Positions 5,776 to 22,757 of a stretch of 24,443 bases of DNA are shown piece by piece. A program made the translations under genes and the position numbers. This DNA is from a virus. Each line of letters begins with the position of its first letter. Position 1 is the stretch's first letter. The stretch is taken from positions 1 through 24,443 of IMG/VR virus record IMGVR_UViG_3300008120_000885. One strand, given 5' to 3'. A model generated the notes under the pieces. The model was not told the origin of the DNA, made no database searches, and saw only the letters and a program-made list of their open reading frames with translations.

Positions 5776-5986
5776 CATTTACGAATTCAGCGAAGAAGAA
5801 AAGCGCGTAGCCGAAGAAGTACTGACCGAACTGGTGGTGCTTGCGCTACAGGTGCGGCCAGCATTGCGCGATTACATCAGCAATCTGTGCGACGGCGTTG
5901 CAGATGCCCTTGATGAGGATGCTGTTGCGAGAAGCAAACAGTATGCCTTGTTGCGCATCAAACAGTTGAAGGAAACTGAGGAGTAG
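5768..5986 (+). CDS. Small helical protein of unknown function
   Basis: The ATG at 5768 overlaps the previous stop (ATGATTAA); a GTG at 5756 is an alternative. The 72-residue product is acidic and helical throughout: EFSEEEKRVAEEVLTELVVLALQVRPALRDYISNLCDGVADALDEDAVARSKQYALLRIKQLKE. The middle helix is quite hydrophobic (VLTELVVLALQV) but too charged at its ends for a clear membrane span. It is the last gene before a regulatory gap and the AAA+/VWA operon. I do not recognise a family. Confidence 0.6.
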   Translation: MINIYEFSEEEKRVAEEVLTELVVLALQVRPALRDYISNLCDGVADALDEDAVARSKQYALLRIKQLKETEE

Positions 5987-6012
5987 CGCTACCGCTACCG
6001 CTACCGCTACCG
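5987..6012 (+). repeat. CGCTAC hexamer tandem repeat (4 copies)
   Basis: Four perfect CGCTAC units start directly after a stop codon, followed by CG. The core CGCTACCG also occurs at the head of the gaps at 9827, 10297 and 10814, so this looks like an expanded copy of a shared intergenic element. It could be a protein-binding site or simple slippage of one. Confidence 0.8.
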
Positions 6013-6049
6013 AAGTCATTCGGAGCAAAGGGATTTCTCGGATTTGGGG

Positions 6050-6094
6050 GCGAACACGCGTTCGCTTGACGACGGGCTGGGGGTCGGGCATACT
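6050..6094 (+). promoter_or_regulatory. Promoter with inverted-repeat operator for the AAA+/VWA operon
   Basis: GCGAAC (6050-6055), four bases, GTTCGC (6060-6065) is a perfect inverted repeat. It abuts a -35 box TTGACG (6066-6071), which is followed by a 17-base spacer and a -10 box CATACT (6089-6094). The spacing is ideal for a vegetative sigma factor. The same operator/-35 arrangement occurs at 9872 and 10347. A regulator bound here would touch polymerase at -35, so either activation or repression is possible. Transcription is expected to begin near 6101. Confidence 0.7.
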
Positions 6095-6100
6095 CGCAGG

Positions 6101-6116
6101 GTCGGCGAACGCCGAC
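6101..6116 (+). promoter_or_regulatory. Leader hairpin at the predicted transcription start
   Basis: GTCGGC-GAAC-GCCGAC is a perfect 6-base stem (7 if the loop closes to two bases). It includes another GCGAAC half-site. It lies at or just after the predicted start and 12 bases before the AGGAGA ribosome site, where it could protect the mRNA end or provide an extra regulator site. Confidence 0.5.
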
Positions 6117-6138
6117 AACAACCCAACAGGAGAAACCA

Positions 6139-6684
6139 ATGACCAATGAAGAAGATGTTCTGGCACAAGTCCAGCAGATAATGGACGAGGCAGGCAAGGC
6201 GCTTGGCTCAGACAGACCAGAGAGTATCAACTCTGAGTTCAGAGCAGTAGAGCAAGCCATGTGGGGCGAACTCGGCAAGATAGATGAGACACACCAGATG
6301 TTCTCTATCTCAGTTGTAGATGAGCCAAGCGACAGGGAGCAAGCGCTCAACGATGTCACCAACGGCAAGGCACATCTTGTCCAAGGTGATGGCACTATCG
6401 AAGGGCATAGCGCCGACACGCTTGTCAACCTCAAGCATGTCGCAGATGCCCCAGACATCTACGAGGCACTCAACGACAAGTGGCTCTCACTTGACCTTGC
6501 TAGGGACAAGGACACCGTTGGTGTTCTTGTACGGCTTGGCGCAAAGTCCTCTACGACACCAGACCAAGACGAAGACACCAAGCGCGACTGTACCGTCACC
6601 ATGATGGTGATGGCAGGACACTTGTATGTTGCCGTTAGACAGGAGAAGACCGATTGGTCAATGCGCTACTCACCTTCCATGTAG
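6139..6684 (+). CDS. Operon protein A, N-terminal part: paralogue of the 8909 protein, apparently frameshifted
   Basis: The ATG has AGGAGA five bases upstream. As read, it gives 181 residues. The start MTNEEDVLAQVQQIMDEAGKAL resembles MSNDKELMSEVASIIDEAKERI of the 8909 protein. Near the end, TVTMMVMAGHLYVAVRQEKTD resembles TTTYIMVAAACVTVHKVLPTGD. After about residue 171 the similarity jumps to another frame (see the fragment at 6654), while this frame ends in a short unrelated tail (WSMRYSPSM). Joined, the two parts would make about 223 residues, close to the 228 of its paralogue. The function is unknown. It is the first gene of the AAA+/VWA operon, so it may be a subunit or substrate of that machine. 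Confidence 0.75.
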   Translation: MTNEEDVLAQVQQIMDEAGKALGSDRPESINSEFRAVEQAMWGELGKIDETHQMFSISVVDEPSDREQALNDVTNGKAHLVQGDGTIEGHSADTLVNLKHVADAPDIYEALNDKWLSLDLARDKDTVGVLVRLGAKSSTTPDQDEDTKRDCTVTMMVMAGHLYVAVRQEKTDWSMRYSPSM

Positions 6685-6809
6685 CAGCAAAGATGCTGTT
6701 TGAGCAGAACAGGGAAGTAGCAGAAGCAATCTACAAAGACCTCTCTCGCCAACGCGAGAAGGAAACAAGCAATACCAACAACAAACAACAGTCCAAGGAG
6801 GACAAGTAA
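6654..6809 (+). CDS. C-terminal part of operon protein A in a shifted frame
   Basis: This frame reads RLVNALLTFHVAAKML...AEAIYKDLSRQ. It lines up with RIVQAQYTFTVAPQAM...YKVMLEQALKAL at the end of the 8909 protein, showing it is the missing tail of the preceding gene. The change is from the frame of 6139 to one base earlier, around 6649-6653. One extra C after ACC (AAG ACC CGA TTG) would restore a single gene. Alternatively, the TTG at 6654, which has AGGAGA eight bases upstream, could start a separate 51-residue protein overlapping its neighbour by 31 bases. The last 15 residues are polar and low-complexity. Confidence 0.6.
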   Translation: MVNALLTFHVAAKMLFEQNREVAEAIYKDLSRQREKETSNTNNKQQSKEDK

Positions 6810-6811
6810 CA

Positions 6812-7540
6812 ATGGATACCCAACAGCAAGAAGCAACACTGACAGCATGGCAAAGAGCAGAGTTCGCCATGGAGCACTCCAACAGAGTGCTTCTGTACGG
6901 ACTCCCAGGAACAGGCAAGACCTACTTCGGTCTGACCCATGCGCTCAACGGCAAAGCCTCATACAGGCTTGCTTGCACTGAGGAGATGACAGAAGCAGAC
7001 CTCATTGGCTTCTGGAGGCGCAAGCAAGACGGCACTCTCGGTTGGTACGAGGGCGTTGGCATCAAGGCATGGCGCGAAGGCGCAAGGCTCGTCGTTGATG
7101 AAGTCAATCGCATCAACGGTGATGTTGAGAGCAAACTCATGATGCTGCTTGACACAGAGGCAAGCGCTTCATGGCAGAACCCTGACACAGGCGAGGTGGT
7201 CAAGCCACATAGCGCCTTCAGTGTCGTAGCCACCATGAACGGACAACCAGAAGACCTAGCGCCAGCAGTGCTAGACCGAATGATTGTTCGTTGCGAGGTC
7301 AATGTGCCAAACCCCAAGGCCATTGAGGCACTGCCAGAGTACTTGCGTGCTCTTGCAAGCACCTTCACCTCAAGCGACGCAGAGCACCGTTACTCGTTGC
7401 GCTCCTTCGTGGAGTTCCACAACATGTACCAGCGCTCAGGCAACATGCCCTTCACGGCACAGGTGGTGTTCCCAGAGGTGGCAGAGTCCATCTTGGACTC
7501 ACTCGCCATCGTGGCATCGGAAGTAGGCACTCATGCCTAA
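6812..7540 (+). CDS. MoxR/CobS-type AAA+ ATPase
   Basis: The ATG follows the previous stop by two bases, with AAGGAGG upstream. The 242-residue protein shows Walker A GLPGTGKT (30-37), a MoxR-style insert with EMTEADLIGFWRR and GIKAWREGARL, Walker B LVVDEVNR (93-100), sensor 1 VVATMN (138-143) and the arginine-finger region APAVLDRM (150-157). A short helical lid domain ends the chain, so it is compact compared with cellular MoxR proteins of about 300 residues. The family forms hexamers that remodel proteins or insert metal together with a VWA-domain partner, as in CbbQ/CbbO, NorQ/NorD and cobalt chelatase CobS/CobT. The VWA gene follows directly. CobS-like proteins are known in other phages; the target here is unknown. 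Confidence 0.9.
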   Translation: MDTQQQEATLTAWQRAEFAMEHSNRVLLYGLPGTGKTYFGLTHALNGKASYRLACTEEMTEADLIGFWRRKQDGTLGWYEGVGIKAWREGARLVVDEVNRINGDVESKLMMLLDTEASASWQNPDTGEVVKPHSAFSVVATMNGQPEDLAPAVLDRMIVRCEVNVPNPKAIEALPEYLRALASTFTSSDAEHRYSLRSFVEFHNMYQRSGNMPFTAQVVFPEVAESILDSLAIVASEVGTHA

Positions 7541-8444
7541 AGCCAAGTACGGTGTGAGCAAGTTCGCTCCAGAGTCACTTGATGTTCGCAAGAAAGCCAA
7601 GCACAATCGCTTTGAGTCCACTGGCACAATGCCTACGACTCTTGACGGTATCTCGGTAATCATGTCGGACTCAGAGAAGAGCCACTTGTACTCAGCACCA
7701 GAGTCAGAAGGAGCAGAGTTCAGGCGACTACGACGCTTTGGCTTGCTTCTCTCGCGCTACGGACTTGTCGATAAGAACAAGTTCGCCAAGAAGAAAGACA
7801 TACCGTTGGAGATAGTGACTTGCGCTGAGCGCCTTGTCGCAACATCGGCATACAAAGACATCTACGGTGGAGACCCCACAGTAGGAACAGTCAACCTTGT
7901 GCCTTTGGCGTCAATGCTCAACAGCAAGGACTGTCCACCATCAGCATTAGCCCATGCGTTATCGTATGCCAATACGGCAGCGTTCCCACAACTCTTGGAG
8001 TTGATTGCGAACCACGACATGCGCATGGACTTGCTCAATGTGGCACAGAACTACCTCTCAGAGACCAGCGTCAACTACCACACACAACGCATCAGGACAT
8101 ACATCAACAAAGAAGGCACAGGGAACACTCGTTACACCAACAGTCACTACCAAGACCTTTGTGGCATGTTGATGAGGTCAGTGGACTCTACGGAAGCCCG
8201 AAAGAAGCACCGTGAGCAGCAAGAACTTGAGCGCCAAGCAGAACGGCAACGCAACCTGCGAGGAAGCGACAAGTACAAGCGCCAACCCACAGACAAACTT
8301 GAGGGCAAGCGCATTGCTCGCAAGCCCACACACGGGGCGCAAAGGCAGGAAACTGATACCCATGCCGTATGGCAAGAGCATCAAGTTCATTGCCAGAGAG
8401 GACACCGACCCAGAACAGAGGGTGTTCACTCGCAAGACCCGTAG
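7533..8444 (+). CDS. N-terminal half of the VWA-domain partner protein, apparently frameshifted
   Basis: The start overlaps the ATPase stop by eight bases, so the two are translationally coupled. The first 268 residues look like a helical domain: basic start, then EFRRLRRFGLLLSRYGL, CAERLVATSAYKDIYGG, SALAHALSYANTAAFPQLLELIANHDMRM. A highly charged helix follows (EARKKHREQQELERQAERQRNLRG). After about position 8337 this frame gives an unlikely tail (HAVWQEHQVHCQRGH), while the VWA domain continues one base further on. The join would give KPTHG then RKGRKLIPMPYGK and a protein of about 460 residues with an N-terminal helical domain and a C-terminal VWA domain, the order usual for partners of MoxR ATPases. 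The shift sits at a GGGG run. Confidence 0.8.
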   Translation: MPKAKYGVSKFAPESLDVRKKAKHNRFESTGTMPTTLDGISVIMSDSEKSHLYSAPESEGAEFRRLRRFGLLLSRYGLVDKNKFAKKKDIPLEIVTCAERLVATSAYKDIYGGDPTVGTVNLVPLASMLNSKDCPPSALAHALSYANTAAFPQLLELIANHDMRMDLLNVAQNYLSETSVNYHTQRIRTYINKEGTGNTRYTNSHYQDLCGMLMRSVDSTEARKKHREQQELERQAERQRNLRGSDKYKRQPTDKLEGKRIARKPTHGAQRQETDTHAVWQEHQVHCQRGHRPRTEGVHSQDP

Positions 8445-8916
8445 CAAGGGAGGCATCGTGGTAGTTGACTGCTCTGGCTCAATGTCGTTTGACGAAAGCG
8501 ACCTTGACCGAATCATGGCAGCAACAGCAGGCGCAACAGTAATCTGCTATTCCTCAGGCTACGAACCACAAGGAGCAAACATGTGGCTAGTAGCACAGAA
8601 CGGCAGACGCACAAGTCGCTTGCCCCACTTCCCAGGCAACAACGGTGTAGATGGGCCAGCACTGGAGTACGCAATGTCCTTACGCAAGCACAATGAGCCT
8701 GTTGTATGGATTAGCGACACCAGAGTCACAGGCGCAGATGACACATGCTCCCAGTACCTACGGGACTGGTGCTTGTCGTTCTGTGAGCGCCACGGTGTGT
8801 ACATCACGCCCAACTCCTACGAAGCAGCAAACCTGCTTACCAAGATACAGCAAGGCAAGAAGCCAAGAATACGCAAGTTCCAACGAGCAACAGGAGGATA
8901 CAAGAACTATGTCTAA
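8362..8916 (+). CDS. VWA-domain (MIDAS) protein, C-terminal half of the AAA+ partner
   Basis: From the ATG at 8362 the 184-residue product contains KGGIVVVDCSGSMS, where D36, S38 and S40 form the metal-ion-dependent adhesion site. It is followed by GNNGVDGPALEYA and VVWISDTRVTGADD, which supply the later MIDAS Thr/Asp loop. This is the VWA pattern of MoxR partner proteins. The frame is open back to 8212, but the upstream codons look non-coding before about 8335. The ATG at 8362 has AGGA about eleven bases upstream, so a separate gene is possible; an unbroken fusion with the 7533 gene is equally likely. The VWA module would bind the ATPase ring or a target through Mg. Confidence 0.85.
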   Translation: MPYGKSIKFIAREDTDPEQRVFTRKTRSKGGIVVVDCSGSMSFDESDLDRIMAATAGATVICYSSGYEPQGANMWLVAQNGRRTSRLPHFPGNNGVDGPALEYAMSLRKHNEPVVWISDTRVTGADDTCSQYLRDWCLSFCERHGVYITPNSYEAANLLTKIQQGKKPRIRKFQRATGGYKNYV

Positions 8917-9595
8917 CGACAAAGAACTGATGAGCGAAGTAGCAAGCATCATAGATGAGGCTAAAGAGCGCATCAACAAAGCAAGAGCAGACGAGGCAAA
9001 GAACGCCCTATTGGCATTAGCCAAGCAGGCAGCAGAGGACAACATGCTCCCCACAGGGCAGCAAGTTCTCTTCTACCTCGTGTCAGCAATACCCATCAGT
9101 GATGTGAATGCCGATACGGCAATACGCCCACCTGGGACAGAGGACAAGACAGTAGAGCAACTGCACGAAGAAGGATACACAGGTGGAGCAGTCACAATGC
9201 CCTTCACCTTTGACACCTACGACGACGCAGTAGGCAACCTTGAGAGCAAAGTCGGAGCAATCATTGCCGACTACTCCCAACAACAAAAGCCATGGGCATC
9301 AGTGACATGTCACAAAGAACAAGGCACGACCACATACATCATGGTCGCAGCAGCCTGCGTGACAGTACACAAAGTGCTACCAACAGGCGACACTGTCACC
9401 TCGCACTATGACCCAGAGACAAGTGAGGCAAAGGACATCGACCAAAGCCTCTACAAAGCAGGCAAGCGCATAGTCCAAGCCCAATACACCTTCACCGTTG
9501 CCCCACAAGCAATGAGGAAGCAATTCCCAGAGACCTACAAAGTCATGCTGGAACAAGCCCTCAAAGCCCTAGGAGAAAGCAATGATGAACAATGA
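8909..9595 (+). CDS. Operon protein B, intact paralogue of operon protein A
   Basis: The ATG overlaps the VWA stop by eight bases and has AGGAGG eleven bases upstream. The 228-residue protein starts with a helical, charged region (residues 1-45), then PTGQQVLFYLVSAIP, a central part with TGGAVTMPFTFDTYDDAV, and strands SVTCHKEQGTTTYIMVAAACVTVHKVL. It ends with RIVQAQYTFTVAPQAMRKQFPETYKVMLEQALKAL. The N- and C-terminal segments match the split gene at 6139-6809, so the ATPase and VWA genes sit between two diverged copies of one gene. No known domain was recognised. The pairing suggests a heteromeric component or client of the AAA+/VWA machine. Confidence 0.8.
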   Translation: MSNDKELMSEVASIIDEAKERINKARADEAKNALLALAKQAAEDNMLPTGQQVLFYLVSAIPISDVNADTAIRPPGTEDKTVEQLHEEGYTGGAVTMPFTFDTYDDAVGNLESKVGAIIADYSQQQKPWASVTCHKEQGTTTYIMVAAACVTVHKVLPTGDTVTSHYDPETSEAKDIDQSLYKAGKRIVQAQYTFTVAPQAMRKQFPETYKVMLEQALKALGESNDEQ

Positions 9596-9737
9596 GCCAA
9601 GCGCTTTGCTTATTGGCACTCTTATTGTGCTTCAGGATACGGCAGCCAGTCGCTCTGGTGCTGGACTGTACATCAGAGCAGGCATAGCAACCCTCCTGAT
9701 ACTTGCGTTCTTCTACGCAAGACAAGCAAGCAAGTAG
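9582..9737 (+). CDS. Small single-pass membrane protein at operon end
   Basis: This 51-residue gene starts at the ATG at 9582 (a second ATG follows at once) with AGGAGA five bases upstream, overlapping protein B by 14 bases. The product MMNNEPSALLIGTLIVLQDT... has one clear hydrophobic segment near the C-terminus (IRAGIATLLILAFFYARQ), then a short basic tail. The first hydrophobic stretch (ALLIGTLIVL) may be a second, shorter helix. The tail would sit in the cytoplasm. It could tie the operon's products to the membrane. No family was recognised. Confidence 0.65.
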   Translation: MMNNEPSALLIGTLIVLQDTAASRSGAGLYIRAGIATLLILAFFYARQASK

Positions 9738-9742
9738 CGCTG

Positions 9743-9802
9743 AGAGACTACGGGTAGGCAGCAATAACCCTCCTAACCTCCTGAAACCTGCCCGTAGTCT
9801 CT
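9743..9802 (+). terminator. Hairpin ending the AAA+/VWA operon
   Basis: AGAGACTACGGG (9743-9754) pairs perfectly with CCCGTAGTCTCT (9791-9802), a 12-base stem closed by a 36-base loop. It starts six bases after the last stop codon. Only a weak T-stretch (TTGTTATC) follows, so termination may be inefficient or Rho-assisted. The long loop could also mean an RNA-stability element. Confidence 0.6.
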
Positions 9803-9871: not shown

Positions 9872-9915
9872 CGAACAGCCGTTCGCTTGACGGGGTGGCT
9901 GGGCTGCCGTACGCT
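9872..9915 (+). promoter_or_regulatory. Promoter with inverted-repeat operator, unit 1
   Basis: CGAAC (9872-9876), four bases, GTTCG (9881-9885), one base, then -35 TTGACG (9887-9892), a 17-base spacer and -10 TACGCT (9910-9915). The layout equals that at 6050. Predicted start is near 9922, giving a leader of about 47 bases. Confidence 0.7.
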
Positions 9916-9968: not shown

Positions 9969-10250
9969 ATGAACAAGCAAGATGAAGAAGCAATGAAGCA
10001 ACTGGAGGGTGCCAAGCAACAACTGTTGCGTGGTACTTGGACAAGTCCAGACACTACAGCCAAGAAAGAAACTTGGTACATTCAGTGCCATGAGACTCAA
10101 GTGGCTGGTAAGCCTGAGGCTGGTCGGGTTGTCTATGTGACGAAGTCACGAGGAGCCTTCCAGTTGGTGGAACTGGTGGAGAACAAGGGTGCTAAGACCG
10201 ACAAGAACGGTCTGGCTGTGTCACTCTGGACTGCCAAGGTTCTTGCCTAG
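9969..10250 (+). CDS. Small basic protein, tandem copy 1
   Basis: This 93-residue protein is translated from a strong site (AGGAGGG, ten bases upstream). It has an N-terminal helix (DEEAMKQLEGAKQQLL), then a beta-rich part: GTWTSPDTTAKKETWYIQC, AGRVVYVTKSRGAFQLVELVENKG and a final LAVSLWTAKVL. The segment SPDTT-KKETW and KSRGAFQLVE are identical or nearly so in the 10448 protein. Each copy has its own promoter, leader and terminator, which suggests high, separately controlled expression. No known family was recognised; the fold may be a small beta-barrel able to bind nucleic acid or protein, but this is inference. Confidence 0.78.
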   Translation: MNKQDEEAMKQLEGAKQQLLRGTWTSPDTTAKKETWYIQCHETQVAGKPEAGRVVYVTKSRGAFQLVELVENKGAKTDKNGLAVSLWTAKVLA

Positions 10251-10294: not shown

Positions 10295-10320
10295 GCGCTA
10301 CCGATGTTGCGCGTGAATAC
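10293..10320 (+). promoter_or_regulatory. Conserved upstream element, copy 2
   Basis: An identical 19-base TTGCGCTACCGATGTTGCG, here directly after the unit 1 terminator, again followed by AATAC (10316-10320). TTGCGC to GAATAC spacing is 16 bases, as in copy 1. It marks the start of the duplicated unit. Confidence 0.55.
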
Positions 10321-10346
10321 GTGCAACGTGGGGGTATGTGGGAGGG

Positions 10347-10391
10347 GCGAACAGGTGTTTGTGTTGACATTCTCGGTGGGTTCGCTAAGGT
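10347..10391 (+). promoter_or_regulatory. Promoter with degenerate inverted-repeat operator, unit 2
   Basis: GCGAAC (10347-10352), four bases, GTTTGT (10357-10362), one base, -35 TTGACA (10364-10369), a 16-base spacer and -10 TAAGGT (10386-10391). The right half-site has decayed while the -35 is a perfect consensus, so unit 2 may respond differently from the other two promoters. Confidence 0.7.
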
Positions 10392-10397
10392 GGTGGG

Positions 10398-10422
10398 TGC
10401 CGAGGGGATGGTCTCCGAGGCA
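10398..10422 (+). promoter_or_regulatory. Structured mRNA leader hairpin, unit 2
   Basis: TGCC (10398-10401) pairs with GGCA (10419-10422). GGGGA pairs with TCTCC around a TGG loop, and between the two stems GA faces GA (10402-10403 and 10417-10418), a tandem G-A mismatch typical of stable RNA. It shares the A-TGG-TCTC apex with the unit 1 leader and is followed by CAGGAGGG. Confidence 0.5.
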
Positions 10423-10447
10423 AGCCCTCTCAGGAGGGGGGCTCAGT

Positions 10448-10735
10448 ATGGCAACAGCAAAGGAACAGAGGCTCAACGGCCTCAAGAAGGCAATTGGCGA
10501 CATCCCACGTGGCAAGTGGTACTCACCAGATACCACCACGAAGAAGGAGACATGGTTCGTATCCGTGGCTCAAGGTCAAGCGGTAGGGATGCCTATCGAA
10601 GGTGACTATGTGTGGGTTGCTAAGAGCCGAGGTGCCTTCCAATTGGTGGAGGTCACCACGCAAGCAGGGGAGCACGTTGACAAGGAGGGACTCAAGCGAG
10701 CCCTCTGGAATTGCAAGGTCGTGAACGACCTCTAG
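10448..10735 (+). CDS. Small basic protein, tandem copy 2
   Basis: This 95-residue product starts at the ATG at 10448, after AGGAGGGGGG; the same frame is open further upstream, but that part overlaps the promoter. It starts with a helix (AKEQRLNGLKKAIGDI), then GKWYSPDTTTKKETWFVSVAQGQ, GDYVWVAKSRGAFQLVEVTTQAG and LKRALWNCKVVNDL. It is clearly homologous to the 9969 protein: the SPDTT, KKETW and KSRGAFQLVE blocks match, while the N-terminal helix and the centre have diverged. Having two diverged copies kept in tandem suggests different partners or promoter-specific expression. No function was recognised. Confidence 0.78.
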   Translation: MATAKEQRLNGLKKAIGDIPRGKWYSPDTTTKKETWFVSVAQGQAVGMPIEGDYVWVAKSRGAFQLVEVTTQAGEHVDKEGLKRALWNCKVVNDL

Positions 10736-21548: not shown

Positions 21549-21969
21549 CTTTGCCCAGAACCGTCTTGGTTCGGTCAAGTACCGTGCAGCCCGACGCATG
21601 TTTGGACCCAACCCAACCGAACAACAGCAAAACGCCCTGCGTGCCTACCGAGAATACTTGAACGCCAAGTTGCCTGGATTCCCCAAGCGCGCCCAGTTCG
21701 AAGCAAACAAGTTGGCAAACGACATCGACCAGATGGACAAGTTGGTTAATGACCCACGCCTGAAGGACAACAACATTGCCCAACTTGTTCGCAGGTATCT
21801 AACACGCCGCAAAGAACTAATGGAAAAGGGAGATTTGAAGAGTTTTCAAGCCAAGAAAGCATTGGCTGCTCGCACCGAACTGTACCAATTGGGTGAATCT
21901 TTGGCCAACAAGAACGACGAGTTTGATAGAGTTTGGTCGCGTTTCTTGGCACAAGAGGTAGATTTGTAA
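21469..21969 (+). CDS. C-terminal continuation of the giant virion protein in the +1 frame
   Basis: This frame reads GEFAFTVWQRQLQEGKRQKFTDREMIDFAQNRLG, then helical, basic sequence to VWSRFLAQEVDL. The segment GEFAF...W-RQ...G directly continues the sense of the preceding frame (GVWERTNTDIIK), and the pattern is familiar from the ends of large actinophage virion proteins. Joined, the protein would have about 1,704 residues. No ribosome site or good start exists at the junction; a GTG at 21487 or ATG at 21541 would be needed for a separate protein. One extra base, or two missing bases, around AAGTGGC would explain the break. Confidence 0.7.
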   Translation, partial: GEFAFTVWQRQLQEGKRQKFTDREMIDFAQNRLGSVKYRAARRMFGPNPTEQQQNALRAYREYLNAKLPGFPKRAQFEANKLANDIDQMDKLVNDPRLKDNNIAQLVRRYLTRRKELMEKGDLKSFQAKKALAARTELYQLGESLANKNDEFDRVWSRFLAQEVDL

Positions 21970-22757
21970 TGGCTGGCGAAAACGAAAACACAAACACGGA
22001 CCAGACGGGTGCTGGCGTTGTTGATTTCGACCCATCACTTGCAAACACCGCCAACTACCAACGACGCAAATTTGTTGGCTTCTCACCGCTGCTGTCCGCC
22101 AAAGAGCAAGCCGACTTGCGCGAGGAACTTGGCATTGGGGTATTCCCGCGCCAAACCGTAGCGCAGTACGTAACCCAGCCAGTCATCTACGACAACTCGG
22201 GCAGAATTGCTGGCCGTCAATACAACTTCGAGGACCCATTCCTTGTCGCTCGCGAACTTGACAAATTGTCAACCGATGAACGAATTCGCATTGCCAATGA
22301 GTTCAAACGAATTGGCTGGTATGGCTCAAGCAAGCCAAGCCAAGCGCTAATCGATGGCATCGGCTGGTCCTCGGATGATGAAAAGGTGTGGCTAAAACTA
22401 TTCGATGTGGCCAACAATGCACAACGCCCATGGCAGGACGTGCTTGGTCTCATTGGCTCATGGTCGTCGGTTGGTGGTACTGGACCAACGGTTCGCGTAA
22501 CTTCGGATGAGGATGCGGCTGCATACACCCGTGAAGTATTCTTGCAGTCTCTTGGTCGTATGCCCACCCGAAAGGAAATGGCGGATGCCGCAGACTTTAT
22601 TCGCAACCGCGAACGCCAAGCCGTAGCCTCTGGACAACAAGTACCAAACACTGGACTTATCGCCGAAACATTCGCACAAAAAGCAGACCCCACCTCCCGT
22701 ACCGTGTTCGGTCTCGGTAGCGCAATCTCCTTGGCAATGCAAGCGTTGGGTCAATAA
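21969..22757 (+). CDS. Virion-region protein of unknown function
   Basis: The ATG at 21969 overlaps the preceding stop (TAATG). The 262-residue product has a polar start (NENTNTDQTGAG), then FVGFSPLLSAKEQADLREELGIGVFPRQTVAQYV, a helical middle with LDKLSTDERIRIANEFKRIGWYG and VWLKLFDVANNAQRPWQDVLGLI. It ends with AAYTREVFLQSLGRMPTRKEMADAADFIRNRERQA. The last block (F-Q-LGR-PT--E) is a short helical motif seen in several actinophage tail or internal virion proteins. It is probably structural. No enzyme site was seen. Confidence 0.7.
   Translation: MAGENENTNTDQTGAGVVDFDPSLANTANYQRRKFVGFSPLLSAKEQADLREELGIGVFPRQTVAQYVTQPVIYDNSGRIAGRQYNFEDPFLVARELDKLSTDERIRIANEFKRIGWYGSSKPSQALIDGIGWSSDDEKVWLKLFDVANNAQRPWQDVLGLIGSWSSVGGTGPTVRVTSDEDAAAYTREVFLQSLGRMPTRKEMADAADFIRNRERQAVASGQQVPNTGLIAETFAQKADPTSRTVFGLGSAISLAMQALGQ

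Follow-up and report, generated by a model that had tools for sequence, protein, structure and literature searches.

The virus record IMGVR_UViG_3300008120_000885 of IMG/VR (24,443 bp, referred to in its entirety as the window) carries an operon on its plus strand, running from gene A at position 6139 to a hairpin at 9743–9802, in which a MoxR-type AAA+ ATPase and a VWA protein are encoded between two homologous acidic proteins, A and B. The operon is real and conserved, and comparison of its sequences across related viruses leads us to propose, at a probability of roughly 0.55, that it encodes a phage MoxR–VWA remodeling chaperone in which A and B would serve as dedicated acidic adaptor subunits. 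Viral MoxR–VWA pairs are common; proposals for their job include metal insertion, virion assembly and processing. The pair itself is an already known kind in phages; the combination of a disarmed peptidase-like site with a built-in A/B family, sometimes including a third member, C, is a variant that we did not find in the open-licence literature searched. The viruses of this A/B clade present two homologous partners that are locked to the pair, charge-matched and fast-evolving, and that are concrete proteins to pull down, while the natural contrast between systems with and without A/B, and with and without an HExxH site, is useful for finding the target of the machine. They also tie an actinobacterial chromosomal family of unknown function to an AAA+ system.

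A MoxR–VWA pair between two homologous partners

In close relatives of the window the genes follow in the order A, MoxR-type AAA+ ATPase, one VWA gene (~490 aa), B and a 51-aa membrane protein, closed by the hairpin. An initial annotation of the window had described six overlapping genes, with the VWA protein in two frames. Downstream of A (6139–6809, its frame broken at ~6641), the AAA+ gene (6812–7540, 242 aa), the VWA gene (7533–8916, its frame broken at ~8324), B (8909–9595, 228 aa), a small membrane-type open reading frame (ORF; 9582–9737, its start overlapping the end of B) and the hairpin are all present in a row as it had proposed. The overlaps, however, are found only among the later genes, as A and the AAA+ gene are separated by a 2-nt gap, and VWA is one gene. 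The 51-aa ORF is conserved in position between the window and 10 close relatives, and the hairpin, with 16-nt arms that are 94% complementary, a 28-nt loop and a folding energy of -34 kcal/mol, is kept in the relatives L004 and L007.

The ATPase matches Pfam AAA_5 (69.2 bits against a cut-off of 22, 4.8e-19) and PHROG 16448 (1.2e-52), and its sequence relatives in the PDB are NorQ (1.9e-9), CbbQ (1.4e-8) and midasin (1.2e-29). Its Walker A (GLPGTGKT) and Walker B (LVVDE) motifs are conserved across the clade. PHROG 33218 matches both halves of the VWA protein in the window, and the intact protein of a relative is matched end to end (1.2e-95). Together with the DxSGS motif of the VWA protein, these matches bear out the earlier assignment of a MoxR-type AAA+ ATPase beside a VWA protein. 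Models of defense systems (PADLOC) gave only generic ATPase matches, and a PDB sequence search with the profiles of VWA and of A gave no useful match.

Further matches of the ATPase are to phrog_249, ‘porphyrin biosynthesis’ (5.4e-22), and, in tblastn, to cyanophage CobS; viral cobST clusters have been proposed to borrow the CobN of the host (PMC8651126). Read in this way, the window pair would be a CobST-like helper of a metal chelatase, which we regard as highly improbable. Neither protein gives a CobS/CobT equivalog match (12 bits for the ATPase on TIGR02442 against a cut-off of 779, no hit for VWA), although a missing equivalog match does not exclude kinship. CobN is absent from 25/25 actinobacterial metagenome-assembled genomes (MAGs) with a chromosomal C, in which controls were detected, though these MAGs may not represent the host of the phage. 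Ribonucleotide reductase is ruled out as a reason for carrying a CobST, since the A/B-clade records searched contain no gene for it.

A and B are clearly homologous at the level of their sequence profiles. Compared profile to profile, they reach E = 2.4e-10 over 220 columns with nine sequences each and E = 1.1e-16 over 204 columns with wider alignments, so that the common N- and C-terminal segments noticed earlier are real. AlphaFold2 models of A from an intact relative (44 aligned sequences, none of them B; pLDDT 86.6, pTM 0.79) and of B (27 aligned sequences, none of them A; pLDDT 87.7, pTM 0.81) share one predicted order of elements, namely an N-terminal helix or helices, strand, helix, strand, two helices, four strands and C-terminal helices. 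Similarity between the two proteins is thus found both in profiles and in models. Neither A nor B matches Pfam, NCBIfam or a PADLOC model, PHROGs return chance-level matches only, B was not found by tblastn in INPHARED phages, and a PDB structure search with both gave nothing at E <= 0.001. In a viral library, A matched the uncharacterized proteins A0A1B0XUJ8, A0A1B0XUI3 and A0A1B0XTX4 (E 5e-10 to 1e-5), which have neighboring accessions and whose lengths of 240, 150 and 234 aa fit A, C and B, respectively.

The association of A and B with the pair is strict. Of 58 VWA loci with enough flanking sequence, 33 fall in the window clade and 25 in a sister clade, counts that include near-duplicate IMG/VR loci and so overstate the independent evidence. 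B lies downstream and A and/or C upstream of VWA in all 33 A/B-clade loci with full flanks, in the arrangements A-AAA-VWA-B (23/33), A-AAA-C-VWA-B (5/33) and AAA-C-VWA-B (5/33), whereas A or B is found in 0/25 sister-clade AAA-VWA loci, one of which has C downstream. Wherever the flank allows, the ATPase gene is directly upstream of VWA, with at most C between them. In a tree of the ATPase (48 rows, root unknown), the A/B form is one side of a single branch with support 100/99, so the strict linkage represents one evolutionary gain (or loss), not many. The expectation that homologues of A and B always stand beside AAA+/VWA genes therefore holds for A and B proper, wherever flanks allow, but not for their short sister C, which also occurs unlinked. 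In L039, AAA-VWA is followed by a protein with a distant likeness to B (hhalign probability 17%, E = 0.0015), which we do not claim as a member.

Divergence, charge and a proposed remodeling machine

The VWA protein combines a diverged N-terminal domain with a C-terminal VWA domain in which the intact protein ends, with no effector domain after it. Within its metal-ion-dependent adhesion site (MIDAS), residues D339, S341, S343 and D422 (L004 numbering) are invariant, which keeps the DxSGS motif and the last Asp. The MIDAS threonine position (D400 of L004:6722-8182) is Asp in 66/66 readable sequences from both clades; Gordonia phage gp70 keeps Thr there. An HExxH motif is found in 0/16 VWA proteins of the A/B clade, compared with 19/24 in the sister clade and 30/30 in records with an unlinked C; in both of these groups a conserved Glu follows some 25–30 residues on. 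Judging from these alignments, the A/B-clade VWA has lost the HExxH...E metallopeptidase-like site that the sister clade keeps. Sister-clade members that keep the motif and its downstream Glu, a pattern seen in zinc metallopeptidases, include viral ‘CobT-like’ VWA proteins (L146:5188-6630, L178:1408-2958, L042:7085-8902 and others), and the peptidase annotation of such sister-clade proteins may be right after all.

The genes of the operon change at different rates. Between the window and IMGVR_UViG_3300020183_000391, identity is 91% for the ATPase, 96% for terL and 93% for portal, against 49% for A (taken for this comparison from an intact near relative), 61% for B and 63% for the N-terminal part of VWA. 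The same gradient, with a conserved ATPase and diverged A, B and VWA N-terminal part, holds across 28 pairs. Charge is kept across divergent operons, with a pI in the A/B clade of 4.5 for A, 4.6 for B and 9.5 ± 0.2 for VWA, while the VWA of the sister clade, without A/B, has a pI of 8.4 ± 1.5. The C-terminal tail of B is acidic in 27/27 sequences.

A mechanical precedent is provided by NorQ/NorD, in which a hexameric AAA+ ring holds a finger of the VWA protein in its pore and ATP drives the turning of the VWA protein, and in which the target is bound partly by the MIDAS of NorD (PMC13036017, PMC9976466). Like the window pair, NorQ/NorD and CbbQ/CbbO have an AAA+ protein of related sequence and a VWA protein with an N-terminal domain followed by a C-terminal VWA domain. 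Unlike them, the window pair has Asp for the MIDAS Thr, no known metalloenzyme client in its operon, and the proteins A and B, which are without counterpart there. By analogy, we infer that the phage pair works by the same mechanics: the ATPase would form a hexamer with the VWA domain docked in its pore, and ATP hydrolysis would turn or stretch the VWA protein against a bound target. That A and B belong to this machine is suggested by their linkage, their charge and their common tempo of change. The basic VWA protein would hold the acidic A and B, probably through its fast-evolving N-terminal part, and A and B would be the adaptors that recognize the target, with the acidic tail of B as a candidate MIDAS ligand. 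Such a complex would remodel its target and not cut it. We consider a host-side target slightly more likely than a virion target, as terminase and portal diverge far more slowly than do A, B and the N-terminal part of VWA.

Several observations weigh against this picture. With Asp in place of Thr in the MIDAS, metal-dependent ligand binding may differ from that of NorD. Synonymous agreement is lower in A and B than in the ATPase gene, and the fast evolution of A and B may partly reflect recombination. A gene of the virion module (21967–22757) diverges as fast as A and B, at 68% and 36% identity where portal is at 100% and 93%. Gene linkage and charge complementarity would also fit A and B as clients, or a VWA protein that binds nucleic acid. 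Finally, the chromosomal C described below occurs without VWA, which means that the fold does not require the AAA+/VWA pair. Separately from these points, the gene at 21967–22757 is itself a possible partner or host-range gene.

The use of the same kind of pair in virion assembly has been proposed for jumbo phages, which encode MoxR with a metallopeptidase-vWA protein (PMC7824862), and a MoxR-vWA pair is reported to be needed for tail assembly in Acidianus two-tailed virus (ATV), as cited in PMC7824862. Many viral ‘cobST’ clusters are probably this same jumbo-phage pair. It shares with the window the two-gene order of AAA+ then VWA. The sister-clade VWA proteins, which are related in sequence to that of the window, keep HExxH...E; in the window clade this site is gone, and the operon has acquired A, B and sometimes C. 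If the window pair were likewise a chaperone that matures the particle, A and B would be assembly factors or clients, and it is in keeping with such a role that terL (11429) and portal (14724) closely follow the operon and share its strand. Against it, and making it rather unlikely in our view, stand a promoter-like site and terminal hairpin belonging to the operon itself, a rate of divergence in A and B far above that of terL and portal, and the loss from the A/B clade of the metallopeptidase-like site proposed to process structural proteins.

That A and B are adaptors and not clients is a judgement. The initial annotation had named them dedicated subunits or clients; dedicated subunits fit the strict linkage, and clients are likewise compatible with it. 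In the client case, the effector would be an A/B(/C) oligomer, which the AAA+/VWA motor would assemble or open. Known MoxR–VWA pairs often stand beside the gene of their client, such as NorQD with cNOR (PMC9976466), and phages that have the HExxH form do not link C to it, although the two often occur together. The models of A and B also show a weak but repeated fold likeness to the ring-forming p32/MAM33 family (for B a Z of 4.2-5.5 at an rmsd above 6, and for A 4.8), which lies below any safe threshold and which we did not use as a clue to function. The pair always lies between A and B, neither of which is dispensed with, an arrangement that suits parts of one complex, and so, as with virion assembly, we hold the client role to be possible but not probable.

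The adaptor arrangement recalls the MoxR-vWA ternary conflict systems (VMAP and others, PMC7159879), which share the MoxR-vWA core and likewise encode a further conserved protein alongside it. The window operon differs from these in being phage-borne, in having its third component in two copies and in the lack of a C-terminal effector domain on its VWA protein. In addition, A and B have no match in Pfam or PADLOC to a VMAP, iSTAND or FtsH third component.

The short relative C and actinobacterial chromosomes

C is a protein of about 155 aa that is encoded between the ATPase and VWA in some operons. It matches A at the profile level, as well as the A-type protein of its own operon. In a joint alignment C spans the core region of A; it has a GDVYELLE motif and a WAxP...PSxHPxRRRVRL segment. 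Where C is unlinked, a VWA gene is found elsewhere in the same record in 31/61 phage records, mostly at a distance of many kilobases; because some of these records are related and some are fragments, the count is no test of independence.

C is also found on chromosomes. A genome scan with a tight C alignment, the broader one being too diverse, detected it in 25 MAGs, mostly of Acidimicrobiia/Ilumatobacteraceae (freshwater Actinobacteria), in which VWA is absent. In three of the MAGs read closely (L210:5971-6498, L202:5971-6501 and L218:2697-3191), C lies directly before nadA, with an overlap of 4 nt in L218, and leuC/leuD are nearby in L210 and L202. These neighbors hint at an unexplained connection to NAD synthesis or to Fe-S enzymes. 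One further MAG, L206, is titled Bifidobacterium breve, but its C gene and neighbors are nearly the same as those of the Ilumatobacteraceae MAG L221 and the title is probably wrong. The distribution of chromosomal C, and not any feature of the window phage, is the reason that we consider freshwater Actinobacteria to be probably the host.

A more remote relative of C is the actinobacterial PPA1309 family (NF040618), whose function is unknown and for which we found no paper in the open-licence literature. C scores 16.3 and 14.7 bits against this family, far below the cut-off of 70, and hhalign gives a weak, partial match (E = 1.6e-5 over 55 columns). C has the C-terminal strand-strand-helix region of PPA1309 and its HPxRxxVR motif. 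In A and B this motif has been lost and additional helices are present at the N and C termini, and neither protein matches NF040618. The description of A and B as a new family is correct in that Pfam and NCBIfam do not recognize them, but because they have a remote actinobacterial relative in C and, via C, in PPA1309, they are not strictly new. A more specific scenario can be drawn from this relationship, in which a MoxR–VWA machine with a disarmed metallopeptidase-like domain uses duplicated, swappable acidic adaptors from a host actinobacterial family, making it a remodeler re-aimed via a captured host fold. We put this forward tentatively and with less conviction than the adaptor role itself.

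The window record and its flanking sequence

The broken frames of A and VWA appear specific to the window record. We compared the window with three relatives, one of which is 99.9% identical over the first 3 kb and another about 99% over 4 kb, and found four private losses of 90 bp at ~3064, ~55 bp at 6641, ~80 bp at 8324 and 41 bp at ~21466, with not each site covered by every one of the three. Three of the losses disrupt a reading frame: A and VWA are broken by the out-of-frame losses at 6641 and 8324, and the third affected frame is a 1564-aa ORF. In relatives A is a single ORF of 241 aa, and VWA is a single ORF of about 487 aa in L002, L003, L004 and L007. The segment RLVNALLTFHVA that the initial annotation quoted for A sits in a different frame from the first 168 codons of A because of the ~55 bp lost at 6641, and the reading of VWA as two genes in two frames likewise goes back to the out-of-frame loss at 8324. 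Programmed frameshifting, which is known for chlD-derived chelatase subunits (cited in PMC8651126), is ruled out here, since the ORF of the relatives is uninterrupted and the window is short by about 80 bp. Four private deletions in one record, two of which break A and VWA, might also point to a decaying or misassembled operon without function in the window phage. We find this quite improbable, as relatives with 99% identity have the operon intact and dozens of divergent phages conserve it.

Elsewhere, the window encodes a RecE-like exonuclease, a lysozyme-like protein, terminase and portal. Its near relative IMGVR_UViG_3300005805_000212 (38,157 bp) adds a major head protein, and the window aligns to the end and then the start of that record, as would be seen for a circular or permuted genome.

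Ahead of gene A, a promoter-like site, TTGACG-17-CATACT, with 9/12 consensus matches lies at 6066–6094 on the plus strand, in a region where such matches are near chance (5 found against 2.8 ± 1.7 expected). The single promoter/operator that had been assigned to the operon thus retains a candidate promoter, while the operator is unsupported because no inverted repeat was found at 5950–6150. The 12-mer GTTCGCTTGACG occurs exactly at 6060 and again at 9881, the second copy being ahead of the next gene. Just before the operon, at 5984–6010, are short tandem GCTACC repeats with one 6-nt unit more than in two relatives. Between the promoter region and A, IMGVR_UViG_3300005805_000212 and L007 have a 107-aa ORF (L004:4947-5270) that is absent from the window and from IMGVR_UViG_3300042452_000370, and that, judged by eye, is possibly a DNA-binding protein. 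Downstream of the operon, the window carries two adjoining small paralogues (9969–10250 and 10304–10735) that are about 46% identical and are kept as a pair in relatives.

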